64,000 nt of DNA, taken from Desulfurella acetivorans A63. Its GTDB lineage: Bacteria > Campylobacterota_A > Desulfurellia > Desulfurellales > Desulfurellaceae. The stretch's first letter is position 1, and every line of letters starts with the position of its first letter. A model generated the notes under the pieces. It was not told the origin of the DNA and ran no database searches. It saw only the letters and a list, made by a program, of their open reading frames with translations. The stretch covers positions 519,039-583,038 of the forward strand of contig CP007051.1 of the NCBI GenBank assembly GCA_000517565.1. Direction: 5' to 3'. Of the stretch, positions 8,372 through 31,133 are shown one piece after another. Made by a program: the position numbers and the translations under genes.

Positions 8372-10585
8372 CTAAAATTTTACAGATAAACTTGCCACTA
8401 CACTAAAAGGTGCACCTACTTGATATGTAGTTTGGCTATACATTGAAAAGTTTGAGTCTGGTGCATTTATTGCACTTATATAACGTCTATTCAGTAAATT
8501 TGTAAAATCAAGACTAAATAAAATTTCTTTTAATTTCCATAGATTTTTTTGCTCATAACTTATATTAAGGTTTGCAAGAAATACTGATGGTACTTCTTGT
8601 GTATGCATCAGATCGCCATAACGTTTTGACATATAACTAAAATACGGCGTAAAAGAAAAATGATCAAATTTGTATGTAAAACCTGCTTTGAGAATATTTT
8701 TGGGCACGTTTATTATTTGTTTTCCTTTTACATCATAATAGTTATTCATAAAAGAAACATTTTGCGTATAATAAAACCTATTGTAGCTATAATCTGCAAA
8801 AATAAGTAAATCTTTAAACGGAGTATATCCTGCTGCCAATTCAAAACCATATGATTTTGCTTTTGCAGTGTTGGCTGGCATTTCTGCTATTGTATTGTTG
8901 TTAACTTTTATTGGTGCATATGTACCAATGTTTTTTACATCACTGTAAAATACTGTGGGATAGAAATAAACATTATTATTGTTGTATCTTAAACCTATAT
9001 CAAAATTATCTGCTGTTGTCATTTTGAAGTATTTATCCCATAAGGATTGCAAAGTAATGCCTTTTTTCTCAAAAACTACTTTGTTTTGAGCAAAAGAAGG
9101 CCATAAATTAAAGTTTGGTGCTTGAAAACTTTTACCATAGTTTGCATATAAATTGATATAATCGTTTAGCTGATAATTTATGCCAATGTATGGCAAATAC
9201 TGCCTAAAAAGTTTAGCATCGGCTGTTTCAAACTGGTCTTTTTTGGCAAGGCTTATTGCTTGGTTGGCATCTTGAGTAGTTATGCCGTAAGTATTATAGC
9301 CATTGATTTGAGCAGTTTTGTACATTAGATATTTTAAGCCGGCATCAACCTTAATTTTTTTTGTTTTTGCTTCTATGTTTATAAAAGGTGAATTTATAGT
9401 ATGATAGCTGTGATCTGCAAGTATGCCCCATTGTTTAAATACAAGTGTATTATTTTTTGGGACGAAGTTTTCTATTGCATAGGGAGGTCCTGGCATTTGT
9501 TGCTTGTGAAACCAATATCCTGCACTTATTTTATAATTTTTTGTTATATCCCAATCAAAACTTGAAACTATTCCAAAAATATTACTATTGTATAAAAATT
9601 TTTGCACGAATTCAGAATTATTTGAAGTATAGTAATTATAACCTCTAACTGACCAATAGTAAGGTTTTAAGACAAGCTTTGATGTGTTTGAAGTATTGAT
9701 AGTAAAACTTGGTAAAACAAAGTAATCTCGTGTATTTACATAATTATAGTTGTAATACAAGGGACTGTTTGGGTTATTATTGTAATCTAAAGCATAATTT
9801 TGGTTTACATTTGAAGCTTGAGAATAGTTTAAGCCTAAGTATGTGTTGTGAAAATCACTATTGTAGCCTAAGTAGAGTTCGAAGTTTAGTAAATTATCAA
9901 AATTTTTTGTTAAACCAAACATTACATTTTTGCGCACAAAGTTACCATCGCCTTTCCACTTATTTGCATAAGCTAAAGACGATGAAATGAAAGTTCTAAA
10001 TCCATTTATATTGCCTGAGTCTAATCTTACAAAACTTTTAGAATAATCATAACTACCAAAACTTTGATTTATTATAGCATCAAGTTTATCCGATGGTTTC
10101 TTAATAGTTAAATCAATGATGCCAGGAAAATCACCAAATGAATTGAATCCAATATTTGGCTTTATGGCTCCATCGTAAACTGAAATATTTTGAATATTTT
10201 CTAAATCAAATACATTTGAAGTGAGATTCCCTGTTGGACCATTTGGTGTTGGGACACCATTAATGTTTATTATACCAGCTTTTGTACTATCAATACCCCT
10301 TAGTCTTAATGTTTCATCGTTGCCGTATGCATCTGGACCTTGAGTATTTACAGATGGAATCATGTTTATTGCATTAAATACAGAATTATTTGAGCCAGAA
10401 AATGTCTTTATTGCTTTTGTATCTAAATTGTATTGGGTTGTAGTTTGTGTGTCAAGAATTTTTGTATAATCGTTAACCATGAATTTTTTTGAAGCCTCAA
10501 CAGTAATACCACTTAATTCTAAGGCGTAGGATTTTTGTGCAATTAAACAACAAAAAAGCCCAACAGCAATTAATTTTTTTTTCAT
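8372..10585 (-). CDS. TonB-dependent outer-membrane receptor
   Basis: About 737 residues from the preferred start MKKKLIAVGLFCC, which has a CCTCCT-complement ribosome site just upstream; an in-frame ATG seven codons earlier (10606) is less likely. It has a signal peptide ending near SYA-LE, a plug domain (about 45-170; pattern LRLRGIDSTKAGIININGVP) and then a beta-barrel of alternating aromatic strands, ending in SLSVKF with the C-terminal Phe typical of outer-membrane proteins. Tyr and Asn are very abundant. It is the last gene of the eight-gene uptake operon. The substrate is unknown; a metal chelate is inferred from the neighbours. Confidence 0.92.
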   Translation of the reverse strand: MKKKLIAVGLFCCLIAQKSYALELSGITVEASKKFMVNDYTKILDTQTTTQYNLDTKAIKTFSGSNNSVFNAINMIPSVNTQGPDAYGNDETLRLRGIDSTKAGIININGVPTPNGPTGNLTSNVFDLENIQNISVYDGAIKPNIGFNSFGDFPGIIDLTIKKPSDKLDAIINQSFGSYDYSKSFVRLDSGNINGFRTFISSSLAYANKWKGDGNFVRKNVMFGLTKNFDNLLNFELYLGYNSDFHNTYLGLNYSQASNVNQNYALDYNNNPNSPLYYNYNYVNTRDYFVLPSFTINTSNTSKLVLKPYYWSVRGYNYYTSNNSEFVQKFLYNSNIFGIVSSFDWDITKNYKISAGYWFHKQQMPGPPYAIENFVPKNNTLVFKQWGILADHSYHTINSPFINIEAKTKKIKVDAGLKYLMYKTAQINGYNTYGITTQDANQAISLAKKDQFETADAKLFRQYLPYIGINYQLNDYINLYANYGKSFQAPNFNLWPSFAQNKVVFEKKGITLQSLWDKYFKMTTADNFDIGLRYNNNNVYFYPTVFYSDVKNIGTYAPIKVNNNTIAEMPANTAKAKSYGFELAAGYTPFKDLLIFADYSYNRFYYTQNVSFMNNYYDVKGKQIINVPKNILKAGFTYKFDHFSFTPYFSYMSKRYGDLMHTQEVPSVFLANLNISYEQKNLWKLKEILFSLDFTNLLNRRYISAINAPDSNFSMYSQTTYQVGAPFSVVASLSVKF

Positions 10586-10651
10586 ATTTTCCTCCTTTGT
10601 TTTCATAAAAATAAATTTATGCTTATAAATTTTTGCAAAAATTATCTCCCT

Positions 10652-12574
10652 TTAAAATTTTAAAGATAGTGTAGTGTAAAAAGACCTTGGTGGCGTTGCA
10701 TAACCGTAACCCCATGAAGCATAATAAAACCTGTTAAATATATTTTGAGCGTAAAGGCCAATTTTTGCGTTATTGTTTATTTTGTAAGATAGATTGGCAT
10801 TAAATACTGTGTATCTTCCAATTTGATGACCAGAATTATCATACATAGTGCTTATGTATTGGCCATTAAGTTGAGCATAGATTCTGTCATAATTAAATGA
10901 AAGTGCACCTGATGTGCTATTGTATGGAATGTTGCTTGTCTGACCAAATGGACCATCTGATTGAGTATATGTATCAGAAAGCGATAATTCTAAGTATTTA
11001 ATTGGTTTGTAAGTTAGAGTTGATTCTACGCCTTTTGATATGGTTTTACTAATGTTTATTGGTATAAAATACTGAGATCCTCCAATTAAAGAAGCATATT
11101 TTGTATCTATTAGGTTATCAATTTTTGACCAGAAAAATGAGCTTGATATCTGAAGTTTATCGCCGAAATTTTGAATAAAGCCTATATCAAATGTTTTGGA
11201 TTTTTCTGGCTGAAGGTTGGGGTTTCCTTTTAAGTAACCAAATCTAAATGGTGCTCCATTAGCATATAAGTCAAACATGCTTGGCGCAACAAAACCAGTA
11301 CCCCAGTTTGCTTTAAATATAGTATTTGTTGGTTCAAAGTAATAGTTTGCCCCAAGCTTATAAGTAAAGGTGTTGCCAAATGTTTGATAGTGATCTTCGC
11401 GGGCACTTGCTTGCAAGTTTAGATTTTGTATGGTTTGTAAAACCTCTAAAAAGGTACCTGCATGTTCTCTTGATACATTAATTTGAGGTGTGTAATCGTA
11501 TATTGCCCTATCTTTGCCATAGTCTACACCAAGGACGATTTTTGTTGTGGGTGCAACATTGTAACTAAAATTAAGACTTGCACCATAAGTGCGGCCTTTC
11601 CACGGTGCGCTTGATGGCGAGTAGTAATAACTATTATTTTGCATGTAGTGAGTTTCAAAGTTTAATGTAGCTTTTTCAAATTTTTTCTCAACGTTTAGTT
11701 TTGTAAAATAATAATCAACTTCATGCCTTGATGATTGAGCTAATGGTGTGAGATTTGAAGGTGCGGAGTTATTGGGACAAACAGGATTGTCTTTGGAATA
11801 TTTGCATATATCAGTATAATTTGTACTTTTATATGAGTCTGTTATGAGGTTTGCACTTAGACCATCGCCAAAATCGTAACCTAAATTGCTATAAAATGAG
11901 TATTTGTGATAGCCATCTCTTTTGCCACCTTGCGAATATGTGTGTGTTTTATAATTATACGAGTAAGTTTGTGGTATTCCTGTTGTGTCATATGCAGAAC
12001 CTGCTACATAAAAATTGAACTTTTTAATCTCGCCAGAGAGTGCCAAATATTCTTTAGTTGTACCAAAAGAACCGTATGTTTGATTGTAGTCAATATGGGG
12101 CTTGCCTTTGCCTTTTTGGGTTATAATGTTTATAACACCGCTTGCTGCATTTGCACCCCAAAGACCACTTTGGGCACCTTGAAGTATTTCTATTCTATCA
12201 ATATTATCTGGCATAATTGGCCCAAGATTGAAATGTGGAAATGGATAATAGGGACTCATGATACTAACTCCATCCATCATAACTTTTGGGCTTACCGGAA
12301 TTCCTCTTATAAAAGCCATCGTTTCACCACCAATACCACCACCTTGTTCTACTGATACACCTGGTAATTGATTAAGCATATAACTTAAAAAGAGATTACC
12401 ATTATCTTCCATTTTTTGTTTAGTTAAAACCTGGATATAAGTAGGTGAATCTTCTATTTTTTGATTTACTTTCGATGCACTTACTACAATTGTATCTAAA
12501 TTTACTGCAAGGGCATTTTGAAATAAAGCAAGACAAAATACTGATGTTAAAATAAATTTTAACTTTAACTTCAT
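10652..12574 (-). CDS. TonB-dependent outer-membrane receptor (BtuB/siderophore-like)
   Basis: 640 residues. A signal peptide ends at ALA-VN, followed by a TonB-box-like DTIVVSASK, a plug domain (about 35-160, with FIRGIPVSPKVMMDGV and EILQGAQSGLWGANAASGVINI) and a C-terminal barrel ending in LSLKF. The plug motifs are the best conserved parts and resemble BtuB and FepA/CirA-like receptors. It lies 45 bases upstream of the second receptor and 9 bases after the ModA-like gene, so it is in the same operon. Two different receptors in one operon suggest two related ligands, or complexed and free forms of one ligand. Confidence 0.93.
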   Translation of the reverse strand: MKLKLKFILTSVFCLALFQNALAVNLDTIVVSASKVNQKIEDSPTYIQVLTKQKMEDNGNLFLSYMLNQLPGVSVEQGGGIGGETMAFIRGIPVSPKVMMDGVSIMSPYYPFPHFNLGPIMPDNIDRIEILQGAQSGLWGANAASGVINIITQKGKGKPHIDYNQTYGSFGTTKEYLALSGEIKKFNFYVAGSAYDTTGIPQTYSYNYKTHTYSQGGKRDGYHKYSFYSNLGYDFGDGLSANLITDSYKSTNYTDICKYSKDNPVCPNNSAPSNLTPLAQSSRHEVDYYFTKLNVEKKFEKATLNFETHYMQNNSYYYSPSSAPWKGRTYGASLNFSYNVAPTTKIVLGVDYGKDRAIYDYTPQINVSREHAGTFLEVLQTIQNLNLQASAREDHYQTFGNTFTYKLGANYYFEPTNTIFKANWGTGFVAPSMFDLYANGAPFRFGYLKGNPNLQPEKSKTFDIGFIQNFGDKLQISSSFFWSKIDNLIDTKYASLIGGSQYFIPINISKTISKGVESTLTYKPIKYLELSLSDTYTQSDGPFGQTSNIPYNSTSGALSFNYDRIYAQLNGQYISTMYDNSGHQIGRYTVFNANLSYKINNNAKIGLYAQNIFNRFYYASWGYGYATPPRSFYTTLSLKF

Positions 12575-12583
12575 ATACTCCTC

Positions 12584-13225
12584 CTAAAAACCAAAAGAAT
12601 TTAATATTTGTTTTGATCGTTTTGAATTTATTAAAAAATCAAAAAACTCCTGTGCTTTTTTGTTGTCTTTCGATAGTAAAACACATTTTTGAATAACTGG
12701 AAAATAGCTATTTTCTAATATTTTAAAGTTGTTATCTTTTAGTGTGCTTTTTACAAAAGAAACAGGCAAAAAAGCAACCTGGGCAATGTGCTCTAATACA
12801 AGTCTTGATACTTCAAATGGACTTTTACCAAACAGTAGATTGTTTTTTACTAAATCCATTAGTTTTGTATTTTCTAAATACTCAAAAGCCGCTTTACCGT
12901 AAGGCGCAATGTTTGGATCTGGAAGAGCTATTTTTGCAGTAGAAATCTCTGGTATTTTATTTTCAAAAGACCACAGGCAAAGTTTTCCTTTTGCATAAAC
13001 TTCACTTGTGCTTGCAAGATTCAAAGAAACTAAATCATCAGCACTTTTTTCATCGGCGCTTAAAAAAATATCGTACTTTTTTCCTTTTAAAATCTCTTGA
13101 TAGTATACATTACAGTTTTCTCCTATAGTTAATTCAAATGAAACCGATTTGTCTTCAAAATTATCTATAATTTCTTCTATAATGCCACTTAAGTTTGGTG
13201 CACATGCAATGCTAACAGTTTCCAT
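12584..13225 (-). CDS. ModA-like oxyanion-binding-fold protein lacking a signal peptide
   Basis: 213 residues. The sequence follows the molybdate-binding ModA pattern: a first beta-strand VSIACAPNLSGIIEEI, the block YDIFLSADEKSADDLV, then IALPDPNIAPYGKAA, which is very close to the conserved ADP..APAG.A stretch of ModA. The start METVSIACA begins directly with the mature domain, and a good GGGAGG ribosome site stands just before the ATG, so no signal peptide was missed. The canonical SG of the anion site is replaced by NCNVY. It should therefore be cytoplasmic, which is unusual for this fold. Within this operon it may buffer, sense or hand over molybdate, tungstate or a related ligand; this is inference. 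Confidence 0.75.
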   Translation of the reverse strand: METVSIACAPNLSGIIEEIIDNFEDKSVSFELTIGENCNVYYQEILKGKKYDIFLSADEKSADDLVSLNLASTSEVYAKGKLCLWSFENKIPEISTAKIALPDPNIAPYGKAAFEYLENTKLMDLVKNNLLFGKSPFEVSRLVLEHIAQVAFLPVSFVKSTLKDNNFKILENSYFPVIQKCVLLSKDNKKAQEFFDFLINSKRSKQILNSFGF

Positions 13226-13269
13226 AAAACCTCCCAGTGTATAAAAATTTATATAACGAATACAAAAAA

Positions 13270-14973
13270 TTACCCAATACCCGTATAAAATGATTTATTC
13301 AACGGTGTATATTTTTTGTTGTTAAATAAAAAATATTTACTTTCAATATTAAAATTGTAAATATGAGGGTAAGCGACATTGGCAATATACATTAATCCAA
13401 AAATCCATTCAACGCTACCAAAGTCCCACCCGAAAGGTAATTTATAAACTTTTTTATATTTTGTGGCATTAATATTAATATTATGATTTTGACAGTAATC
13501 AATAAAATCTTCAGTTTTGCATGAAATAAAACCTGAGATAAAAACGATATCTGGATTGTATGAGATAAGAGTTTCTTTGGATATATTTATACCAGGTTTT
13601 CCTTCTTTTTCTAATTTTAAAACTTCAAGGCCAACAAAACTTGTCAGTTTATTTTCAAATCTATGCGTATTTAGAGCAAAAATAGGAGTGCCCATTACAT
13701 AATAAGATTTTAATTTTTTATCAATTTTTTTGCGTTTTAGCTTAATATCATCTAAAATTTCTTTGTAAAAATCAATTAGTTTTTTTGGGTTTGCATTTGA
13801 AAGTTTTGCAAGCAGTTCGACTATATCAAAATAATTTTCAAGATTTGAATTTATGTCATCTTGCGTTTCATGAAAAAAATTAAGGAATGTTTTGTCTTTT
13901 AAAATTTCAGTAATAACACTGGCAATGGTTTTTTTATCTGTTACATTAAGTGCATTTAATATACCAATTACCATCTCAAGGGCTCTTGTGATCCTGTAGC
14001 CACCAAAAAATCCGTCCTCTTCATAATCTTTTTTCGATACATCACCTATTATGCAGTTGGGCTTTCCTTTTATTGATATGATATGTGCTCCCATTGGACC
14101 ATAAAAGCTGCGCTTAATGTCAAAATTATCTGAATTTGTATCTAAATACTTTGTACCAGGTGAGTTAAATAAATAAACATAATCTAAATGTTTTTTTAGT
14201 TCTTCTACCAAATTTTCAGATTCTTTAATTGATGGCTCAAGCTCACCCGAGGCTTTATCAAAAGGTATAAAACGCATAATTTGCAGTGGTATTTGCTTTG
14301 ATAGTTTAGATAAAAATTTTGCAACATTTATAAGTTCATTTTCAACTCCTTTTGAGTAAACAATAGAAACTTCAAAATATACATTGTTTTTGAATAGATA
14401 AACAATATTCCTATATACTGGTTTTGAATCTGGTGCTTTGCAAAACTTTCGGTAAGTTTCTTTAGTGTATCCTTTTAAGCCTACATTAACAAAATCCAGG
14501 TATTTGATTAATTTAAATAGTGATTCTTTTGTGTAGTAAAGATTTGTAGATATACCAAATAACAATTTGTTTTCTTTGGCAATTTTAGCTAGCTCAAGCA
14601 AGCTAAAATAGTGCATGGTAGGTTCGTTTATACCAAAGCTTATGCCTTTGCAATTTTCTTCAAGTGCTTTTTGTACAATTTCTTGTGCACTGAGTTTTTT
14701 AAAAGCATTTTTATATATATCAATGTATTTTACAAAAATATTAGATACACAACCTTCGCATTTAAAATTACAACCTACGCTTCCAATCTGCAAAAATTTG
14801 TGGTTTACAAAAAAATGCAACATTGGCTGTGTTTCTATTGAAATAGGATTTACAAATAAGTACGAATTCTTAAAACGTTCTGTGATTTGACCATTTATAT
14901 TTTGATACATACCGCATGATCCTATTTTTGAATTTTCAATATTGCACCTAAATTCACAGATGTAACATTTCAC
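13270..14973 (-). CDS. Radical SAM protein with C-terminal periplasmic-binding-protein-like lobe
   Basis: 567 residues. The N terminus is Cys-rich (C3, C6, C10, C20), similar to PflA/AmmeMemoRadiSam-type proteins. The radical SAM motif is CNFKCEGC (C68, C72, C75), and the SAM-domain pattern GISFGINEPTMHYF follows. From about residue 400 the sequence matches the C-terminal lobe of BtuF/FecB-type binding proteins, including NPDIVFISGF, KKVYKLPFG and SVEWIFGLMYIANVAYP, and it parallels the true binding protein of this same operon. There is no signal peptide, so both halves should be cytoplasmic. The chemistry is unknown; the fusion suggests that the imported ligand is bound and modified. Confidence 0.85.
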   Translation of the reverse strand: MKCYICEFRCNIENSKIGSCGMYQNINGQITERFKNSYLFVNPISIETQPMLHFFVNHKFLQIGSVGCNFKCEGCVSNIFVKYIDIYKNAFKKLSAQEIVQKALEENCKGISFGINEPTMHYFSLLELAKIAKENKLLFGISTNLYYTKESLFKLIKYLDFVNVGLKGYTKETYRKFCKAPDSKPVYRNIVYLFKNNVYFEVSIVYSKGVENELINVAKFLSKLSKQIPLQIMRFIPFDKASGELEPSIKESENLVEELKKHLDYVYLFNSPGTKYLDTNSDNFDIKRSFYGPMGAHIISIKGKPNCIIGDVSKKDYEEDGFFGGYRITRALEMVIGILNALNVTDKKTIASVITEILKDKTFLNFFHETQDDINSNLENYFDIVELLAKLSNANPKKLIDFYKEILDDIKLKRKKIDKKLKSYYVMGTPIFALNTHRFENKLTSFVGLEVLKLEKEGKPGINISKETLISYNPDIVFISGFISCKTEDFIDYCQNHNININATKYKKVYKLPFGWDFGSVEWIFGLMYIANVAYPHIYNFNIESKYFLFNNKKYTPLNKSFYTGIG

Positions 14974-14978
14974 AACTT

Positions 14979-15590
14979 TTACTCCTTTGTTATGATTATC
15001 CAGAAACCACTTTCATTATTTATGATTGAATAAGTTTTAATATTTGAGTTGTTCATTATATTTTTTATTACTTCAGGGTTAGTCTGTTTAAGGCGTTCTT
15101 TAACCTGGTTGTGCCAGTTTGGATTTTTCTTTGACATGATCTTAAATATTTTTTCTTTCAGGTCTTTATTACCAAAGCCACCACCAATGTATGTTATGCC
15201 ACCTTTTTTTAAAATTCTATAGATTTCTCTGAAGCCTTTATCTTTGTTTTCCCAAAAAAACATTGAACCCCTGCTTATAATTAAATCGGCAAAGTTACTG
15301 CTAAACGGCAGAGCTTCTACGTTTGAAACAATCGGCAAGATAGTTTTTTTGTTTTCTTTTTCGATGAATTGTTTTGCACTAAATGCCATATCAAACTCTA
15401 AGTCAACAGCAAAAATTTGAAAATTTCCAAAATTATATAGGTTTCTTGATAAAATAGCGCTTCCACAGCCAATTTCTACTACAGTGCCACTTTGTTTTTT
15501 AAATAGTTCAAATATGTTTTGGGCTATTTGTGGGTATATATCCTTAAAGACATTTTCTGCTATATCGACAAAGCTTGCATATTTACTCAT
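14979..15590 (-). CDS. Class I SAM-dependent methyltransferase
   Basis: 203 residues. Motif I VVEIGCGSAILSRNL (about 36-50), the acidic motif II FAVDLEFD, motif FADLIISRGSMFFW and the post-motif RILKKGG mark a UbiE/Methyltransf_11 fold. It starts inside the end of the ATPase gene (4-base overlap) and stops 5 bases before the radical SAM gene, so translation is probably coupled. The target is not known. Together with the radical SAM enzyme it suggests chemical processing of a ligand brought in by the ABC transporter. Confidence 0.88.
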   Translation of the reverse strand: MSKYASFVDIAENVFKDIYPQIAQNIFELFKKQSGTVVEIGCGSAILSRNLYNFGNFQIFAVDLEFDMAFSAKQFIEKENKKTILPIVSNVEALPFSSNFADLIISRGSMFFWENKDKGFREIYRILKKGGITYIGGGFGNKDLKEKIFKIMSKKNPNWHNQVKERLKQTNPEVIKNIMNNSNIKTYSIINNESGFWIIITKE

Positions 15591-16354
15591 ATAAACTCCA
15601 ATGGCGTAATGAATAGCTTGCCGTTGTTATTTATAACTGTAATTTTTGTTTCGTATAGCTCACTTAAATTTTGGGCATTCATTATAGATTTTACTGGACC
15701 AAATTTAAGCAAAGAGCCATTTTTTATCATTATTACAATATCAGAAATCCATGCAGCAAGGTTTGGATCGTGAAGCGTTATTATTGCTGTTAAATTGTGT
15801 TTTTTTATGAGATTTTTTATAAGATTTAATATAGCATATTGGTTTGAAAAATCTAAATGATTCGTTGGTTCATCAAAGAGCAAAATTTTAGCTTCTTGCG
15901 CAAGAGCTTGTGCTATTAAAACAAGCCTTTTTTGACCACCGCTTAATTGTGTAAAAGGCTTATTAATAAGGTTTTGCAAACCAACGAGTGATATTGCTTT
16001 TTTGGCAATCTTGATATCTTCTTTTGAAGGTTGGTTTAACATGCCTACATTATGGGCTCTTCCTGTTAAAACTATATCGAAAACGCTAAAAGAAAAAGAA
16101 ACTTCATTTTCCTGGGCGAGGTAGGCAATTTTTTTTGCAACATTTTTAATACTCAAATTTTCTAAATTTTCATTTTCTATTAAAACAGTACCTTTTTTTG
16201 GTTTTAATAATTTGTCCAATATTTTTAATAGTGTACTTTTACCAGAACCGTTTGGTCCAAGTATTGTACATATTGAAGATTCACTTATGCTAAAAGCTAT
16301 ATTTTTTAATATATCTACATCATAAGAGAAATTTAAATCTTTTGCTTCTATCAT
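15587..16354 (-). CDS. ABC transporter ATPase, FecE/BtuD/MolC family
   Basis: 255 residues. Walker A GPNGSGKST, Q-loop AYLAQEN, signature LSGGQKR, Walker B ILLFDEPTNHLD and the H-loop TLHD are all present and in normal order. The family energises import of siderophores, heme, vitamin B12 or, in the MolBCA case, molybdate/tungstate through FecCD-type permeases. It overlaps the permease gene by 4 bases upstream and the methyltransferase by 4 bases downstream. It is a complete and apparently active ATPase. Confidence 0.95.
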   Translation of the reverse strand: MIEAKDLNFSYDVDILKNIAFSISESSICTILGPNGSGKSTLLKILDKLLKPKKGTVLIENENLENLSIKNVAKKIAYLAQENEVSFSFSVFDIVLTGRAHNVGMLNQPSKEDIKIAKKAISLVGLQNLINKPFTQLSGGQKRLVLIAQALAQEAKILLFDEPTNHLDFSNQYAILNLIKNLIKKHNLTAIITLHDPNLAAWISDIVIMIKNGSLLKFGPVKSIMNAQNLSELYETKITVINNNGKLFITPLEFI

Positions 16355-17313
16355 AGGCGTTTTTGTTTTTTATAAAGCCAAGCAAAAAATGGAGCACCCA
16401 AAAGCGATGTTAAAATTCCAACAGGTATTTCTCCAGAAATTAAACTGCGTGCTAGATCATCTATAATTACCATAAATATACCACCAACAAAAATGCTTGT
16501 GGGCATGACGTTTCTATTATCACTGCCAGAAATCAAGCGTGAAATGTGCGGTATAATAAGCCCAACCCAACCTATTATGCCAACAACAGCTACACTTGCT
16601 GCTGTTGTTAGGGTTGACAAAAGTATGATTATTTTTCTCAAATTTATTATATTTACACCTAAAGATTTTGCTTCATCATCGCCAAAAGCTGCAATATTTA
16701 ACTGCCATCTTAAAAGGTATAAAAAAACTACGCATATGCCAATTATAATAAATGCACCCCATGCGCTAAAGCTTACATTTGCAAAACTACCCATTAACCA
16801 GAAAACAATCTGGGGCAATTGGTTATTCGGATCAGCAAGATACTTTATAATACCCAAAAGTGCAGTAAAGAAAGAACCAACAATTATTCCCGATATTACA
16901 AGGTTTAATACAGGTAACTCTTGCTTTGATTTTGCAAGAAAAAATGCTATATAAACTGCTATTGTTCCAAACACAAAAGCAAAAATTTCAATAAAGTAAA
17001 AATGATTTAGCGTAAGTATAGCTAAAGCGGCGCCAAAAGCAGCACCGCCTGATACACCCAAAATGTCGGGCGAGACAAGGGGGTTTTTAAACATAGCCTG
17101 ATATGCACTTCCAGCTGCGCTAAGCCCAGCACCGACAAAGTATGCAAATAACACTCTGGGCAATCTTATATCTAATACAATTGTTGAGTCAATTGATGCC
17201 TTAGGATTAAAAAAGCACTTAACCACATCAATGGGTGCAATTTTGTATGGTCCAACACCTAAAGATACAACAATAACAACAAATGATAAAACAATTAAAA
17301 TAGTGTTTTTCAA
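16351..17313 (-). CDS. FecCD-family ABC transporter permease
   Basis: 320 residues with about ten hydrophobic helices, as in BtuC/FhuB halves. Typical family motifs are DIRLPRVLFAYFVGAGLSAAGSAYQA, NPLVSPDILGVSGGAAFGA and the cytoplasmic coupling region SLGVNIINLR, followed by VGIIGWVGLIIPHISRL. It should form a homodimer in the inner membrane with two copies of the ATPase. It overlaps both neighbours by 4 bases. Confidence 0.95.
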   Translation of the reverse strand: MKNTILIVLSFVVIVVSLGVGPYKIAPIDVVKCFFNPKASIDSTIVLDIRLPRVLFAYFVGAGLSAAGSAYQAMFKNPLVSPDILGVSGGAAFGAALAILTLNHFYFIEIFAFVFGTIAVYIAFFLAKSKQELPVLNLVISGIIVGSFFTALLGIIKYLADPNNQLPQIVFWLMGSFANVSFSAWGAFIIIGICVVFLYLLRWQLNIAAFGDDEAKSLGVNIINLRKIIILLSTLTTAASVAVVGIIGWVGLIIPHISRLISGSDNRNVMPTSIFVGGIFMVIIDDLARSLISGEIPVGILTSLLGAPFFAWLYKKQKRL

Positions 17314-18344
17314 TTTTTTAGTCCTATAATGTGAATTTCATCGGGGTTTATATTCCAGAAAGTTTTATAATAATAATCTGCTTGTGATTTGAGGTTAAGA
17401 GATTTAAAACGTTGTGGATGCAAAAGTTTTGCGCACCAGAGAAGACCAAGAGGTGCTTTTTCTGGAGCAAACCAGTTTGAGTAGAGACTTCCACCATCCT
17501 GCGGTACCAAATACACTCTTTTGTGAATGATAGCAGCTACATAGCGTAAATCTTTGTCGGCGTATATGTTTTGAATTGTTTTTTTATTTCCACTGCCAAG
17601 TAGTATAAAGTCTGGTTGCCACTTCAGGATATCTTCTTTTGATATTTGGCCAAATTTACCCTTTACATTTCTAGATACACTTATACCACCAGCTTTTTGT
17701 ATAATATCATTAACTAGTGTATCAAATTGTCCACCTGAGGTTAGTTTGTTGCCTTTAGGCCCTTGATAACTCAAATATAATACTTTTGGTTTTTCTTTTA
17801 TACCATTTAGATGACTTTCTGCATATTCTACTGTATGTTTATAATAGGAAATTAACTTTTGGGCATCTTTAACATGATTTGTAGCCTCACCTAGACTATT
17901 TATGCTTTGATACAAGTCGTTTAAATTTCCAAAGCAAGCGCTAAAGCCAATAACAGGTATGCCCAATTTTTCAAATTGTTCGTTGTCTGCTTGCATATTT
18001 ATATTAACAATAAAACCAGGTTTTAGAGCAACTATTTTTTCAATGCTTGGACCAAAAGGATAACCAACGTCAGCAACTTTTTTCAAAAAATCTGGCATTT
18101 TCTTTAAAATAAGTTGACCACTAAAATAAGGCACAGCATTTCTACCCATGCCTGGATACCCTACAAGATCATCTGAAGCATTAATCATAAAAACAAAAGG
18201 TAAAGCCTGTGGAAAAAGCACAACAAAACGATCTGGATTTTTAATTTCAATTTTCTTCCCAAAATTGTATACTGTAATTGTTTTAGACCAGGCACTTGGC
18301 AAAAAAACCAACAGGGCAAATAAAACTACAAAAATTTTTTTCAT
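17310..18344 (-). CDS. ABC transporter substrate-binding protein (BtuF/FecB/TroA-like)
   Basis: 344 residues. A cleavable signal peptide (MKKIFVVLFALLVFLPSAWS) has no lipobox Cys. The N-terminal lobe has PFGPSIEKIVALKPGFIVN and the C-terminal lobe has WQPDFILLGSG and KRVYLVPQDGG, the usual class III binding-protein pattern with a long linking helix. It is the first gene of the operon and lies directly behind the promoter at 18366-18394, with AAGGGGG before the ATG. Ligand: a metal chelate, corrinoid or oxyanion. Similar proteins serve all three, so it cannot be settled here. Confidence 0.93.
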   Translation of the reverse strand: MKKIFVVLFALLVFLPSAWSKTITVYNFGKKIEIKNPDRFVVLFPQALPFVFMINASDDLVGYPGMGRNAVPYFSGQLILKKMPDFLKKVADVGYPFGPSIEKIVALKPGFIVNINMQADNEQFEKLGIPVIGFSACFGNLNDLYQSINSLGEATNHVKDAQKLISYYKHTVEYAESHLNGIKEKPKVLYLSYQGPKGNKLTSGGQFDTLVNDIIQKAGGISVSRNVKGKFGQISKEDILKWQPDFILLGSGNKKTIQNIYADKDLRYVAAIIHKRVYLVPQDGGSLYSNWFAPEKAPLGLLWCAKLLHPQRFKSLNLKSQADYYYKTFWNINPDEIHIIGLKN

Positions 18345-18365
18345 TTTTCCCCCTTGTTTTAGCGA

Positions 18366-18394
18366 AGTATATATAAATACATATCGATTGTCAA
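18366..18394 (-). promoter_or_regulatory. Sigma70-type promoter of the uptake operon
   Basis: Read on the minus strand: TTGACA (-35, 18394-18389), 17 bases, then TATACT (-10, 18371-18366). The start codon of the binding-protein gene lies 22 bases further on, so the leader is short. No Fur box or riboswitch-like fold was recognised in the short leader; I did not find an obvious operator. Confidence 0.8.
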
Positions 18395-18485: not shown

Positions 18486-18525
18486 TTAAGTGAAATTGCA
18501 AATTGTTTTTAAAAAGGAGGCTTAC

Positions 18526-19257
18526 TTGGTAGTTAAATTTAGAATAAAGTTGCTAGATTGTACTAAAATAACAACAAATTATCGCAAAAATTTTGTTTCT
18601 TTAATTAAAGAGGCTTTTAATCGAAGCGGAAATGAAAAACTAAAAAATTTAAACACCATTACAAAACAAAAGCCGTTTACTTTTTCAGTTAAATTTTCTG
18701 TAAAAAATTCTAATGATAATCAATTAGAGCTTGAAAATAGCGTATTTGATTTTTATTTTTCAACAAACGATTATTTGATTTTGATGTCGGTTTATAATTT
18801 TATAATTAGTCATTTAAATGACTACAATATTTTTGCAAATTGCAAGAATATTTTAGTTAAAGTAATGCTACTAAATAAGCCAACAATTGACAAAGATTCT
18901 GTTGTATTTAAAACTTTAAGTCCAATAGTTGTGCGCGATATGATAAATAAAAATGGCGATAGAACATTAAAATTTAGTGATGAAGGTTTTATATATAACT
19001 TAAAACTTTCAATAAAAAGCCAGATAAAGGCTTTTATGTGCCAAGATGTTGATCAAAACAGTATTGGTATAAAGGTTTTAAAAATGAAAACAGATAATAT
19101 AAATAGTTTTGGTAACAATAAAAACTCTTATGGTTTGTATGCAAATAGTGGATTGCTTGAGTTAAATTTAAAGTCCGAATATTTACAGCTTTTGTATGAC
19201 ATAGGTGTTGGTGCAAAAAGAAGCCAGGGTTTTGGCATGTTGGAGAAAATATTATGA
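18526..19257 (+). CDS. cas6: CRISPR pre-crRNA endoribonuclease Cas6
   Basis: 244 residues if it starts at the TTG at 18526, five bases after AAGGAGG (18514-18520); a GTG 12 codons upstream has no such site and puts the ribosome site inside the coding region. It ends with the Gly-rich Cas6 signature GVGAKRSQGFGMLE, and the middle has the SPIVVRD block typical of RAMP Cas6. It would cut the repeat transcript to leave an 8-base 5' handle; the repeats here end in ATTTAAAG, matching that length. It overlaps cas8b by 4 bases. Confidence 0.92.
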   Translation: MVVKFRIKLLDCTKITTNYRKNFVSLIKEAFNRSGNEKLKNLNTITKQKPFTFSVKFSVKNSNDNQLELENSVFDFYFSTNDYLILMSVYNFIISHLNDYNIFANCKNILVKVMLLNKPTIDKDSVVFKTLSPIVVRDMINKNGDRTLKFSDEGFIYNLKLSIKSQIKAFMCQDVDQNSIGIKVLKMKTDNINSFGNNKNSYGLYANSGLLELNLKSEYLQLLYDIGVGAKRSQGFGMLEKIL

Positions 19258-20846
19258 TTGAAGTAATGGATTTTAGCCAAAAAGAAAGAATTTACTTGAG
19301 GGATTGGTATTATAATGCTGGCATTGTTGGTTTTTTAAAGGTAATTAGCGATGGCAATTTGGATATTGAAAAGCTAAAAGATTTTGGTGACAAATTATAT
19401 ATTGGCGAGGATTATATTGAGTTTGATTTGAGTATTCTTGAAAATTTTAAAGAAAAATTCTACAGACAGCTTTTTTTGCATTATTTTGATTTAGGGCAAT
19501 ATCAAGCTTACCTAAACAAAGCATTACAATATAAAGCCGATAAAATATCAAAAATACTTAAAGAAATAGATAAATATCCTTTTAAAGGTTTGCATATTTT
19601 TTTGGGTTATTCACTAGATACTTATGATGATATTGTAAATTACAAAGAAAAAATAAGTGAACTTACAAAAGAACAAATTTACGATAAAACAAGGGATACG
19701 GGTTTTGTTGTTGATTTTGTAGGAAATACAACAAAAAATATAATCGGTCTTTCTAAGTTAGATGATTATTTAAATAGCGTAAGAAAATTATCGTTTAAAA
19801 TAAGAAAAAGATCTGATAAGCTCTGTATGTCATGCCAAACAAGAAAAAAAGAATTTGATATGAATAATGCAATATCAAATATCATAGGGTTTAATCCTGA
19901 CAATTCTAATTGGATTTGGGGTTTTGATGCTAATAAAGTTAAATTATGTTCAATTTGTTCACTCGTATATTTATGTGCAAGCGTGAGTTTGGTATTTCAC
20001 AAAAAAGACAGTAACTATAAATATTGTTTTTATTTTATTAATCACAACAGAAGCATTAGAAAGCTGGTAGATAGCTATAATGGTTTTCAGGGGCAAGTTA
20101 ATATAAAAGTTAACAATAAAGAAATTTACCCTATAATGGTAAAAGAAGCTGTTAAATTCGTTAAAGAAGAACAAGCTAGTCAAACACTGCAAAATATTTC
20201 TTTTATTGAGATACAAGAAAATAATATGGGAGGTCAAAGCACCAAAAGTTATAATGTTTACTCTTTTTCTTTGACAAAAAAGCTTGCGGAATTTATAGAT
20301 CACAATATTGAAAAAATACCAAAGGGTTTTTATTTTATAAAAAAAGATTATTTCGATATTGAATATGAAATTTTAAAGAAAACGATAGAAAGAAATCTTA
20401 ACTATAATGACATTGACAAATACTTTAGAATGTATTTTTCCTCTAAGAGTAACAATTTTGTAAAGTTTAACTCAAATATTTACTCTATTGTTGACTACAT
20501 TTTAAAGTATATATCTTATATATTTTTAGGAGGTATGATGGATTTAGAAAAAATTTCTAAAAAAGGTTTTGTAAATGGCAAGCAGCTCAGAGAACGACTT
20601 GGTAAAGAAAAAGAAAACCAAATTAACGGTCTTGCTTACCAATTCTTAAATGATTTGAAGGTGGGCGATAGGGATAAGTTTTTAGACAAATATCTTAGGG
20701 TTTCTATTTCAAATCAGATGGAATCTCGTTTTGGTCAAGATGAAATGAACAGCAAAGAGGCTTTTTTGCACTTTGGTTACAGTTTTATAAATGGACTATT
20801 AAATACTTATGAAAATAATTCTAATAAGGAGAATAAAAATGAATAA
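19254..20846 (+). CDS. cas8b: Type I-B Cascade large subunit Cas8b1/Cst1 (CXXC-CXXC)
   Basis: 530 residues. Two CXXC pairs (C191/C194 in CMSC, C232/C235 in CSIC) are the mark of the Cst1 family and probably form a zinc site. The rest is helical with little recognisable motif, as usual for Cas8 proteins, which recognise the PAM and hold the target in Cascade. The first and second cas genes overlap (ATGA). The C-terminal ~103 residues can be translated alone from an internal AGGAGG-ATG, listed separately. Confidence 0.9.
   Translation: MIEVMDFSQKERIYLRDWYYNAGIVGFLKVISDGNLDIEKLKDFGDKLYIGEDYIEFDLSILENFKEKFYRQLFLHYFDLGQYQAYLNKALQYKADKISKILKEIDKYPFKGLHIFLGYSLDTYDDIVNYKEKISELTKEQIYDKTRDTGFVVDFVGNTTKNIIGLSKLDDYLNSVRKLSFKIRKRSDKLCMSCQTRKKEFDMNNAISNIIGFNPDNSNWIWGFDANKVKLCSICSLVYLCASVSLVFHKKDSNYKYCFYFINHNRSIRKLVDSYNGFQGQVNIKVNNKEIYPIMVKEAVKFVKEEQASQTLQNISFIEIQENNMGGQSTKSYNVYSFSLTKKLAEFIDHNIEKIPKGFYFIKKDYFDIEYEILKKTIERNLNYNDIDKYFRMYFSSKSNNFVKFNSNIYSIVDYILKYISYIFLGGMMDLEKISKKGFVNGKQLRERLGKEKENQINGLAYQFLNDLKVGDRDKFLDKYLRVSISNQMESRFGQDEMNSKEAFLHFGYSFINGLLNTYENNSNKENKNE
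20538..20846 (+). CDS. Predicted Cas11b small subunit from an internal start in cas8b
   Basis: In frame with cas8b, TAGGAGG at 20527-20533 is followed by ATGATG at 20535-20540. The second ATG has 4 bases of spacing and gives a 102-residue helical, charged protein (MDLEKISKKGFVNGKQ...) that matches the C-terminal helical part of Cas8b. Independent translation of a small subunit from within cas8 is established for several type I systems, including I-B. The Shine-Dalgarno here is as strong as those of the true gene starts in this window. Expression itself is an inference. Confidence 0.65.
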   Translation: MDLEKISKKGFVNGKQLRERLGKEKENQINGLAYQFLNDLKVGDRDKFLDKYLRVSISNQMESRFGQDEMNSKEAFLHFGYSFINGLLNTYENNSNKENKNE

Positions 20847-26486: not shown

Positions 26487-29400
26487 GTTTTAGCCCCCAA
26501 TTGTGGGATTTAAAGTGTGAACATTTTATTATTTATTACTGGCACAATTAGGTTTTAGCCCCCAATTGTGGGATTTAAAGATGTAGAATTGCCAGCAGCT
26601 GCGCCAGCGTATAAATTGTTTTAGCCCCCAATTGTGGGATTTAAAGGGGCGCGCTCAAAAATTCTAATCTTTTTGTGACTTTGTTTTAGCCCCCAATTGT
26701 GGGATTTAAAGTTGATTGCAAAAAGCAATAAAAAACACGAACCAGACCGTTTTAGCCCCCAATTGTGGGATTTAAAGTATATTAACTGTTATTTAATGAG
26801 TGTCATTTTTAGTTTTAGCCCCCAATTGTGGGATTTAAAGGACAATTTTTACTGTTTTATTAGTCTTTTTGTTCTGGTTTTAGCCCCCAATTGTGGGATT
26901 TAAAGTTTAATTATATCGAATTAAAAAATAATATGTTTTTTGCGTTTTAGCCCCCAATTGTGGGATTTAAAGCGCTTTATGCTTAACAGATAGATTTGGT
27001 TTTACTTTGTTTTAGCCCCCAATTGTGGGATTTAAAGATGGTGAAGAAGTTTACATATTAAAAACTGCATACTGTTTTAGCCCCCAATTGTGGGATTTAA
27101 AGTAGTAAAAGTAGATGATGATATTATCACAAAATACACAGTTTTAGCCCCCAATTGTGGGATTTAAAGTTGTGAACAAGTATTCCCATCCACCTTTCTG
27201 CTTTTTGTTTTAGCCCCCAATTGTGGGATTTAAAGTTCATTCGGATGATTACAATAATGTAAAGGAATATTGTTTTAGCCCCCAATTGTGGGATTTAAAG
27301 TTTGTGGCAGGCAATATTTGTCTTGTCCACAATGGGACGTTTTAGCCCCCAATTGTGGGATTTAAAGATACTGTTCTCTAGATATATGGATTTTTCCTTC
27401 TTGTTTTAGCCCCCAATTGTGGGATTTAAAGTTTTGTGACAGGCTAACGTTTAAATAATCCCATGCCGTTTTAGCCCCCAATTGTGGGATTTAAAGTTTT
27501 AAAAATTTATTTTTAGGAGCTTATATATGTATGTTTTAGCCCCCAATTGTGGGATTTAAAGAACAATTTTTACTGTTTTATTAGTCTTTTTGTTCTGTGT
27601 TTTAGCCCCCAATTGTGGGATTTAAAGTAAAAAACTAATCGATGAAATGATAAAAATCGGCGGGTTTTAGCCCCCAATTGTGGGATTTAAAGATTATTGG
27701 CATAACGGACGCAAGACTGTTGCACTAGGTTTTAGCCCCCAATTGTGGGATTTAAAGCCTTGCCACGTAGCAAGCAACTCTCGCTGCACTACGGTTTTAG
27801 CCCCCAATTGTGGGATTTAAAGTTATATCCACCACCAAATACTCCGAATTCAGATGGTAGTTTTAGCCCCCAATTGTGGGATTTAAAGAAAAAAGGAGTT
27901 TGTATGAAAGAATGCGTTAATTGGTTTTAGCCCCCAATTGTGGGATTTAAAGGGCTACAAGTGAAGGCAAGTTTCCGGACACAATTCCGGTTTTAGCCCC
28001 CAATTGTGGGATTTAAAGCAAATAAAAAGAGTGCTGCTTTTTTTAACACTTCAGTTTTAGCCCCCAATTGTGGGATTTAAAGGGTTCATTAGCTTGTTAG
28101 TCTACAGGGGGGCTTGCACTGTTTTAGCCCCCAATTGTGGGATTTAAAGTTTGATTTTTATGTTTGTGAAATAATCAGGTATGTTGTTTTAGCCCCCAAT
28201 TGTGGGATTTAAAGCTGTAAACAAATTTATTTTAATGTTTTAGACGGTGAGTTTTAGCCCCCAATTGTGGGATTTAAAGTCATTACATATTTAGATGAAT
28301 CTGTTATTAAACCAGTTTTAGCCCCCAATTGTGGGATTTAAAGGGCAAAAAATACAAAAATACATTCAGAAAACACATCGTTTTAGCCCCCAATTGTGGG
28401 ATTTAAAGGCTCTTTTTAGATTTACTTAGCTTTATTTCTTATGAGTTTTAGCCCCCAATTGTGGGATTTAAAGAAAAACGAGCAAGAGAGCGTTAGCGTC
28501 CTAAACCGGTTTTAGCCCCCAATTGTGGGATTTAAAGCTGCCATCACTTGCAACGCTTGAAGGTCAGTCAAAAGTTTTAGCCCCCAATTGTGGGATTTAA
28601 AGGATAACATAAATTTTAAATTATTTTGATTTGTAATTGTTTTAGCCCCCAATTGTGGGATTTAAAGAATTTACTATTTCTAATAGACTAATGGTAACAG
28701 GGGTTTTAGCCCCCAATTGTGGGATTTAAAGGCATTGATATTAACTGTTATTTAACAGGGGTCATTTGTTTTAGCCCCCAATTGTGGGATTTAAAGATGG
28801 GATAGTCTTATTTCAAAAATAGACAACGCATACAGTTTTAGCCCCCAATTGTGGGATTTAAAGTTTTGTAGCCTCATACCCCAACGCTTGTAAAAACTCA
28901 GTTTTAGCCCCCAATTGTGGGATTTAAAGAGAGCGGGCTGCCTGACCAACAGCCACAAAAACGCGTTTTAGCCCCCAATTGTGGGATTTAAAGGACGATT
29001 TTTACTGTTTTATTAGTTTTTTTATTTTGTTTTAGCCCCCAATTGTGGGATTTAAAGTTAAAGCTGTGCAAAAGCTGGCAATGATGCAATGAGTTTTAGC
29101 CCCCAATTGTGGGATTTAAAGTTATAATCGAGGATATGCTTGATTTGGGATTCTTAATGTTTTAGCCCCCAATTGTGGGATTTAAAGTATGCTGTTTATT
29201 ATGGAGCAACAGGCGAGATATCTTGTTTTAGCCCCCAATTGTGGGATTTAAAGGAATAACGCGGAAGCTTGTTAAGCAACGCAAAAAATGTTTTAGCCCC
29301 CAATTGTGGGATTTAAAGTCAATATTACCAACTATGTTGGCTCTAAACGGCGTCGTTTTAGCCCCCAATTGTGGGATTTAAAGCCAGGGGGGGGCTTTAC

Positions 29401-30815
29401 TCAAGGGTTGATATTGGTGTTTTAGCCCCCAATTGTGGGATTTAAAGTCATTCAACAATTATAATTTTTAGTATTTCACTCACTGTTTTAGCCCCCAATT
29501 GTGGGATTTAAAGTATATCGCCGTAGGACAAAACAACGTATTATATGCAGTTTTAGCCCCCAATTGTGGGATTTAAAGTATTGGTTTACAGGGCTTGCTA
29601 ATAGATAATAAAACGTGTTTTAGCCCCCAATTGTGGGATTTAAAGCCTTTTTAAAAAAATGCTCAAAACATATCAATGTTTTGTTTTAGCCCCCAATTGT
29701 GGGATTTAAAGTCGGACGATTGGCATTTTTTGTTATTGTGACAAGGGTTTTAGCCCCCAATTGTGGGATTTAAAGTAAAATATATCAATGTTTTAAAAAA
29801 AGATAGCATTGAGTTTTAGCCCCCAATTGTGGGATTTAAAGGTATAGTTCCTGGACTATTATTATGAAGCGGTTCATATGTTTTAGCCCCCAATTGTGGG
29901 ATTTAAAGTCGGGCAATTGGCATTTTTTGTTATTGTGACAAGGGTTTTAGCCCCCAATTGTGGGATTTAAAGCAGTTAAAGCTTTTTATAGCGCTTGTTT
30001 CTTTAATGTTTTAGCCCCCAATTGTGGGATTTAAAGTAATTGATGCATATCTACATATGCTATAAACCTGGTTTTAGCCCCCAATTGTGGGATTTAAAGT
30101 CATCAATACTTACAACGGATGAAGAGCAGGACTTAGTTTTAGCCCCCAATTGTGGGATTTAAAGCTTGAGGGGCTCCACAGGGGGCTTTACTACTCAAGG
30201 TTTTAGCCCCCAATTGTGGGATTTAAAGTTGATATCAAAATGGTTTTTTTTGTTGTCAATTGTATAAGTTTTAGCCCCCAATTGTGGGATTTAAAGTAGG
30301 GAAATTATACACCACCTTTATGGGCTATTCCCCGTTTTAGCCCCCAATTATGGGATTTAAAGAAGTTTTTTACAATTATGCTTTTTAATAGATAGCCTGT
30401 TTTAGCCCCCAATTATGGGATTTAAAGGTTTTTGGGTAGCGGCACAACAACATTAGCCGCAAAGTTTTAGCCCCCAATTATGGGATTTAAAGTTTTAAAA
30501 TATTACAAGGGGGCTAAAAAATGTATTAGTTTTAGCCCCCAATTATGGGATTTAAAGGTAATTTTATTAATTAGTTCTCCATCTTTGTAAATCGTTTTAG
30601 CCCCCAATTATGGGATTTAAAGTTTAATGCATCTATGAATTTATGGGGGTGGATTATAGTTTTAGCCCCCAATTATGGGATTTAAAGTTTAATGCATCTA
30701 TGAATTTATGGGGGTGGATTATAGTTTTAGCCCCCAATTGTGGGATTTAAAGTGGGTTTTTCAAGAAGTTTTACTTGTTTTTTTTGGTTTTAGCCCCCAA
30801 TTGTGGGATTTAAAG
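26487..30815 (+). CRISPR. CRISPR array, 67 repeats / 66 spacers, 29-base repeat
   Basis: The repeat begins GTTTTAGCCCCCAATT, continues GTGGG and ends ATTTAAAG (29 bases). Spacers are mostly 34-38 bases. By my count there are 67 repeats, the first at 26487 and the last at 30787-30815. The CCCCCAATTGTGGG part can form a short hairpin just before the presumed 8-base handle, as Cas6 substrates do. Repeats at 30334, 30399, 30464, 30529, 30594 and 30659 have ATTATGGG instead of ATTGTGGG. The final two repeats return to the major form. Several spacers are near copies of one another and one is exactly duplicated (see findings). Confidence 0.98.
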
Positions 30816-30840
30816 AAAAAACAATAAAAAAATACTTATT

Positions 30841-30880
30841 TCAAGAAAGATTTTTACTAAAAAAATTTGGAATTTTTTGC
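30841..30880 (+). repeat. Degenerate copy of the cas-operon upstream region
   Basis: By eye this matches 18391-18430 at 36 of 40 positions: TCAAGAAAGATTTTTACT is identical, then a few changes, then AATTTTTTGC is identical. It has the same orientation as the original, which includes the -35 of the uptake operon and the area upstream of cas6. It is followed about 15-20 bases later by a cas6 remnant, so the two belong to one degraded copy with an internal deletion of roughly 200 bases. Confidence 0.75.
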
Positions 30881-30896
30881 TTTAAAAATTAAATAT

Positions 30897-30975
30897 TTAA
30901 TACTATCACAAAACAAAAACTTTTCATTTTTATTGTAAATTTTCTGTAAAAAATTTTAATGGTATCAATAATGTA
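30897..30975 (+). pseudogene. Remnant of cas6 (internal fragment)
   Basis: This stretch matches the coding sequence of cas6 at about 18652-18722. ACAAAACAAAA and AATTTTCTGTAAAAAATT are shared, and the translated start TITKQK is identical. A one-base deletion before the AATTTTCTG run shifts the frame into a stop, so it cannot be functional. The rest of 30816-31133 holds only this remnant, the upstream copy just before it and AT-rich DNA with no gene; a TATACT at 31099-31104 may be a -10 element for the next genes. Confidence 0.7.
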
Positions 30976-31133
30976 ATGTGAATTACAATTAAATTTTTTT
31001 GTTATTTATTTAATTTTTACTTATATGTATAGTACGCTACAGATTACAATTAACATTTTTTACACAAATTGTCTATATTTTTTTCATAAAATTGAGCATA
31101 TACTAAAATAATTTAAAATAGGAGGTAAAAGTT

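Follow-up and report, generated by a model that had tools for sequence, protein, structure and literature searches.

The window analysed in this study is a 64,000-nucleotide stretch of the Desulfurella acetivorans A63 genome (1.82 Mb; G000:C1:519039-583038), and its subject is an eight-gene operon on the minus strand. The genes encode, in this order, a solute-binding protein (SBP), a FecCD permease, an ATPase, a methyltransferase (MTase), a radical S-adenosylmethionine (SAM) fusion protein, a ModA-like protein, and two TonB-dependent receptors. Neighboring genes overlap by 4 nucleotides (nt) at the SBP/permease, permease/ATPase, and ATPase/MTase junctions, and the remaining gaps are 5, 44, 9, and 45 nt long. 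All eight open reading frames were found on the minus strand where a first-pass annotation of this DNA had placed them, and their Pfam and NCBIfam families agree with its labels. Its assignment of a FecCD-type importer and two TonB receptors was borne out by matches to the Peripla_BP_2, FecCD, ABC_tran, and TonB receptor families. With a PF01032 permease, an ATP-binding cassette (ABC) ATPase, and a class III SBP that carries a signal peptide, the importer is of the FecCD type (BtuCD-like). The operon comprises the following features.

17310 to 18344, minus strand: class III periplasmic binding protein (Peripla_BP_2) with signal peptide; best PDB relative 4ovk (E 1.5e-26), second HI1472/MolA (3psa, E 4e-16)
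16351 to 17313, minus strand: FecCD-type permease with TTG start (PF01032, 294.6 bits)
15587 to 16354, minus strand: ABC ATPase (Pfam/NCBIfam, ABC_tran)
14979 to 15590, minus strand: class I SAM methyltransferase with SRGSxFFW and GGGFG motifs (Methyltransf_11); conserved partner of the fusion gene
13270 to 14973, minus strand: radical SAM/half-SBP fusion protein of 567 amino acids (aa) with GTG start (Pfam/NCBIfam, PDB profile search, structure model)
14134 to 14973, minus strand: radical SAM domain of the fusion, residues 1 to 280; C68-x3-C72-x2-C75 plus N-terminal cysteines C3, C6, C10, and C20; pyruvate formate-lyase (PFL)-activase-like fold
13306 to 13842, minus strand: predicted linker helix and C-lobe of a class III binding protein in the fusion, residues 378 to 556 (PDB profile search, Foldseek)
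12584 to 13225, minus strand: ModA-like protein without signal peptide (SBP_bac_11/modA)
10652 to 12574, minus strand: TonB-dependent receptor 1, closest to colicin I receptor and BtuB; missing from the operon of genome G001
8372 to 10606, minus strand: TonB-dependent receptor 2, of siderophore-receptor type; no PDB relative by sequence
18366 to 18394, minus strand: sigma-70-like promoter TTGACA-17-TATACT, 11 of 12 consensus bases
18361 to 18388, no strand assigned: ModE-box-like site ATCGATATGTATTTATATATACTTCGCT, between and over the -35/-10 hexamers; 16/22 matches to the published Geobacter/E. coli ModE consensus
13233 to 13260, no strand assigned: ModE-box-like site directly before the ModA-like gene; rank 1 by position weight matrix (PWM) in the 64-kb window

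Two unusual proteins of the operon

The Pfam matches of the fusion protein were Radical_SAM and a weak C-terminal Peripla_BP_2 match (E 0.002, under the Pfam cut-off). When the PDB was searched with a three-sequence profile, residues 378 to 556 aligned to 4ovk 133-319 with an E value of 1e-16. An AlphaFold model built from 40 homologues reached a pLDDT of 90.6 and a pTM of 0.90, and Foldseek matched its N-terminal part to PFL activase and its C-terminal part to 4ovk, 4hn9, and CeuE. By position, the C-terminal part is predicted to be a linker helix and the C-lobe of a class III SBP whose N-lobe is missing. The SBP lobe that the first-pass annotation had seen in the C-terminal third of the protein was thus recovered by both the profile search and the model.

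Cysteines C68, C72, and C75 and the four N-terminal ones (C3, C6, C10, and C20) are invariant in an alignment of 40 sequences, and the CxxxCxxC motif together with the PFL-activase fold places the protein in the radical SAM superfamily. For the whole fusion, no Pfam or NCBIfam model other than the generic radical SAM domain scored above its cut-off. The best NCBIfam relative of the N-terminal domain was AmmeMemoRadiSam (TIGR04337), at 88.7 bits versus a cut-off of 220, which leaves the fusion outside that family; a separate AmmeMemo-like gene, 29% identical, lies elsewhere in the genome. No HemN-type family was present among the Pfam and NCBIfam matches, and the best relatives were of the PFL-activase/AmmeMemo type. 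Judged by these relatives, the fusion enzyme does not appear to be of the HmuW/HutW type; it was not compared with HmuW directly. The Trs/DVU_1556 radical SAM-methyltransferase families were considered and rejected, the MTase scoring 34.8 versus 155 bits (NF045667) and the fusion having no TrsS (NF045646) match. Searches of plasmids turned up only AmmeMemo-type and ordinary ModA relatives.

The ModA-like protein scored 90.9 bits against TIGR01256 (modA; cut-off 62.5) and therefore belongs to that family. Structure prediction of 12584-13225, which had been suggested as a check in the first-pass annotation, gave a ModA fold (pLDDT 92.1) with 4kd5, 1atg, and 7t4z as the best Foldseek matches (TM ~0.8-0.9). 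The absence of a signal peptide, also claimed there, agrees with three findings. The first residues form the first strand of the ModA fold in the model, the N-terminal hydrophobicity maximum is 1.36 versus 2.6 to 3.5 for the SBP, the TonB receptors, and the genome's true ModAs, and the start position is identical in both other genomes of the genus. Relative to 1atg, the GSSG-type loop is replaced by GENCN and a Thr position by Pro, with Asn and Tyr kept; the altered Ser and Thr positions are presumably oxyanion contacts. Cys8 and Cys38 are conserved in the genus, and the form of the metal bound by the protein may be a different one or one with sulfur ligands. Elsewhere, the genome encodes two ordinary ModAs that do carry signal peptides. 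Two tandem modA genes and modD (G000:C1:1580082-1581459, L161) lie ~100 kb from mop-modB-modC (1484 kb, L162), so that the molybdenum (Mo) importer of this genome is split over two loci.

Candidate ModE control and neighbors of the fusion gene

The published ModE consensus of Geobacter and E. coli is ATCGCTATATAN6TATATAACGAT (PMC2700814). A ModE helix-turn-helix (HTH) protein is encoded in the genome (103.8 bits versus a curated cut-off of 98.5), which, together with the ModE-box-like operator predicted at the promoter, makes the operon a candidate member of a ModE regulon. The operon-promoter site is kept in G001, a diverged genome of the same genus, with 17/22 consensus matches. A half-site next to the -35 box is common to the promoters of the operon, modA-modA-modD, and mop-modBC, and occurs in this genome only there. 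The pattern TTGACN{2,9}CGWTATRTA had exactly three matches in D. acetivorans (G000), before this operon, mop-modBC, and modA-modD, and three in G001, before the same three operons, whereas a backward control pattern gave 0 and 2 matches, respectively. Because the G000 sites and the operon site of G001 had served to derive the pattern, only the two Mo sites of G001 provide an independent test.

For a PWM whose training set was limited to the modA and mop-modBC sites of G000 and G001, the best score in the window, 15.7 (0.05 expected per 64 kb), fell at 13233-13260. In the 19-kb locus of G001, the gap before the ModA-like gene ranked first and the operon promoter second. The predicted operator before the ModA-like gene is thus a strong one, and that at the operon promoter is weak alone but conserved. 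A single promoter had been proposed for the operon in the first-pass annotation. The sigma-70 match is indeed good, but a second regulated start is possible at the ModA-like gene, since a further ModE-box-like site lies in the 44-nt gap in front of it. Promoter-like matches overall were no commoner than in shuffled sequences, that at 18366-18394 being one among many expected by chance, and this match was consequently not used alone.

Within the genus, the operon is present in G001 at 73 to 82% protein identity, without TonB receptor 1, and all of its parts are present in G002, split over two contigs. In a relative from another family (G011), the genes for SBP, permease, ATPase, and MTase are followed by a fusion gene that is cut off after its start by the contig end. 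A first scan of genome contigs with the fusion protein alone yielded no matches. An alignment of the MTase opened the search to other phyla and led to seven named loci outside the phylum. One of them, in Methanospirillum (L044), encodes the MTase followed by a full-length fusion (39% identity), FmdE, a ModA-type SBP, ModB, and ModC. The fusion was detected in 33/295 genomes of the Methanospirillum phylum, 6/297 of the Syntrophorhabdus phylum (where 4 more genomes have an unfused short form), 4/349 of a Bacillota phylum, and 6/347 of the Sulfuricurvum phylum. Methanogen-type archaea carry it, as do three further bacterial phyla, mostly with the same MTase and FecCD importer next to it, and a unit of SBP, MTase, fusion, permease, and ATPase recurs in many archaeal and bacterial genomes. 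In a tree, the archaeal and other bacterial fusion sequences form groups, and this genus stands on a long branch with no firm nearest neighbor. Unfused radical SAM genes adjoin SBP/FecCD genes in other bacteria, which identifies the fusion partner as an operon neighbor and supports a functional link between the two.

A conserved neighborhood had been expected for the MTase, fusion, and ModA-like genes. This held for the fusion and the MTase, which are conserved in other phyla, but not for the ModA-like gene, which in the searches made here was limited to this genus. For this reason, the exact eight-gene set is local; TonB receptors were seen in none of the archaeal loci and are variable in the bacterial ones. 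Signal-less binding proteins are nevertheless a recurrent theme, as unrelated SBP_bac_6 proteins of this kind adjoin the same MTase family in Bacillota and Bacteroidales loci (L046 6428-7294; L048 11635-12660; L264 4949-5824; L265 207-1073), with a CobW-like GTPase next to them in L048 and L264.

Further variation was seen among the fusion loci. A regulator with HTH_3 and PBP_like (PF12727) domains lies beside modABC and the fusion gene in L137 (11866-12978), another cytosolic binding-protein domain in this setting. A frame-shifted fusion copy, broken near the domain border, adjoins an intact convergent copy in L136 (G190:C1:19689-21420). Two or three diverged fusion paralogues per genome are present in G303 (G303:C14:123668-127107, L120) and G152, and those in L120 are converging.

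The genes ModA, ModB, ModE/Mop, ModD, FmdE, and DUF364 within ~10 kb of the fusion were taken as markers for Mo and tungsten (W). A first survey found them in 7/37 loci versus 2/60 control stretches of the same genomes (p = 0.014), by criteria that were partly post hoc, having been set after some loci were seen. Weight is therefore carried by a later sample, for which the criteria were fixed and the loci were picked only by the fusion gene. A marker was present in 10 of its 11 loci, versus the same 2/60 controls (p = 1.5e-9); these controls derive from other genomes and phyla than the cases, and several of the 11 loci are closely related to one another. All six Sulfuricurvum-phylum loci carry ModE or Mop, and ModE-box-like sites lie upstream of ModE or methyltransferase genes in these six. 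One Bacillota locus encodes the fusion, MTase, SBP, ATPase, permease, DUF364, ModC, ModB, and ModA. DUF364 is linked by genome context to transport of Mo, W, and vanadium (V), and a role in metal chelation has been proposed for it (PMC2954201).

The ModE-box-like sites, the ModE gene in the genome, and the Mo/W neighbors in other phyla support the initial guess of Mo or W as the metal, and we consider a Mo/W role of the system very probable. The same sites and neighbors would also suit the salvage of an intact Mo/W cofactor of the pyranopterin type, or of a fragment, which the radical SAM/MTase pair would dismantle or repair; MoeA is encoded in one Bacillota locus (L264). This occurrence is however confined to that single locus, the core unit has no cofactor-binding domain, and the periplasmic SBP is of the metal-chelate/heme/corrinoid class, so that we regard cofactor salvage as quite unlikely. 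TonB receptor 1 is similar to BtuB and the permease to BtuC, and the fusion C-lobe also resembles nickel-binding CeuE, as would be expected if the ligand were another organometallic compound (a corrinoid, heme, or a Ni or Fe chelate) and the Mo/W context coincidental. The repeated Mo/W neighbors and the ModE-box-like sites speak against coincidence, only 4ovk in the PDB matches the operon SBP better than HI1472, a molybdate/tungstate SBP, and neither a cobalamin riboswitch nor any other Rfam match was found in the window. A ligand of this sort is very unlikely in our judgment.

Proposed function

Taking together gene content, domain folds, conserved neighborhood, ModE-box-like sites, and Mo/W neighbors, we lean slightly toward reading the operon as a ModE-controlled system of anaerobes for the uptake, cytosolic processing, and release of chelated Mo and/or W. 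Judging from the SBP and FecCD genes, a metal complex is imported, and the TonB receptors suggest a ligand too large or too scarce for porins; importer and receptors together would bring a Mo/W complex into the cytoplasm. That a cytosolic radical SAM enzyme carries a half-SBP suggests renewed binding of the imported ligand in this compartment. Held by the half-lobe, the ligand would face the active site of the radical SAM domain, which would stand in for the missing lobe, and the radical SAM enzyme and the MTase would modify the organic part and so free the metal. The cytosolic ModA-like protein of this genus would then take over the metal or the complex. The chelate nature of the ligand, the direction in which the chemistry runs, and the transfer to the ModA-like protein are our inferences; the recurrence of signal-less SBPs in this neighborhood was counted in favor of the proposal. 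More tentatively, the system may represent an undescribed Mo/W metallophore pathway of anaerobes, archaea and bacteria alike, in which a radical SAM enzyme with a captured half-SBP opens the chelate in the cytoplasm.

Several observations weigh against uptake and cytosolic release. Within 10 kb of the fusion, Mo/W genes are missing from 30 of the 37 first-survey loci, nearly all of them archaeal. Genes for metallophore synthesis were not seen. With its likeness to PFL activase and AmmeMemoRadiSam, the radical SAM domain is not evidently a HemN-like class C methyltransferase as in HmuW, and high-affinity capture by the SBP part of the fusion alone is doubtful because the N-lobe is missing. The site of the ModA-like protein has lost the Ser that we take to bind the oxyanion, and the operon-promoter box ranks only 8 by PWM in the window.

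The two SAM-dependent enzymes of the core unit could alternatively assemble a Mo/W metallophore, or complete its maturation, for secretion and re-import through the same operon, the SBP lobe holding the product during synthesis or sensing the returned complex. DUF364, proposed to make a pterin- or flavin-like metal chelator (PMC2954201), is present in several loci but was not seen in the window operon, which also contains no exporter or scaffold-making enzyme. Importer and half-SBP, on the other hand, are present in nearly all loci, and biosynthesis appears rather unlikely as the role of the two enzymes.

Divergently from the operon start, the window encodes Cas6 (PF01881) and a 530-aa protein without Pfam match (18490-20846), the latter likely a CRISPR-Cas subunit. 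A CRISPR array of ~50 repeats of ~29 nt (GTTTTAGCCCCCAATTGTGGGATTTAAAG) follows at 27500-31000, with TATGGG repeat variants in a run at ~30330-30690. A PWM match at 29762 was rejected, as it falls in this array.

Comparison with known systems

A description of a radical SAM/SBP fusion or of a ModE-controlled TonB system was not found in the open-access literature, subscription papers not being covered; within that literature, the claim that no described system has this set of genes stands. FecCD importers, TonB receptors, and the release of metals by radical SAM enzymes are individually known, but no account of their combination, of the fusion, or of the link to Mo/W was found in this literature. 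How anaerobes in sulfidic settings acquire Mo/W beyond free-oxyanion importers is poorly known, and we know of no dedicated Mo/W metallophore in methanogens or in this genus. With a defined set of genes, a regulator, candidate operators, and two enzymes that can be assayed, the system makes Mo/W acquisition by anaerobes testable.

DUF364 (PF04016) shares the Mo/W/V transport context and occurs in several fusion loci but not in the window operon. AmmeMemoRadiSam (TIGR04337) is related to the N-terminal domain of the fusion more closely than any other NCBIfam family; it has no SBP domain, however, and the score of the fusion lies far below its cut-off. The ModA-like protein has the fold of ModA and an above-cut-off score for TIGR01256, but it differs from periplasmic ModA in the missing signal peptide, the replaced oxyanion Ser, and two Cys, and its gene sits with a FecCD importer and not with modBC. 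MolBCA of Haemophilus influenzae, a molybdate/tungstate importer, is likewise of the FecCD type, and its HI1472 is related to the operon SBP, as described above; to our knowledge, no radical SAM enzyme, methyltransferase, or cytosolic SBP is associated with MolBCA.

The radical SAM enzymes HmuW and HutW free iron from imported heme without oxygen (PMC10404700, PMC10035031). Functionally, the HmuW/ChuW/HutW systems are the closest precedent: like the proposed system, they comprise an uptake operon with a radical SAM enzyme that liberates a metal anaerobically from an organic complex after its import. As we understand them, they differ in acting on iron and heme, in using a class C radical SAM methyltransferase without a fused SBP lobe, and in having no link to ModE. 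By analogy with iron and heme, the operon described here points to a possible release of Mo/W from chelates through radical SAM chemistry.

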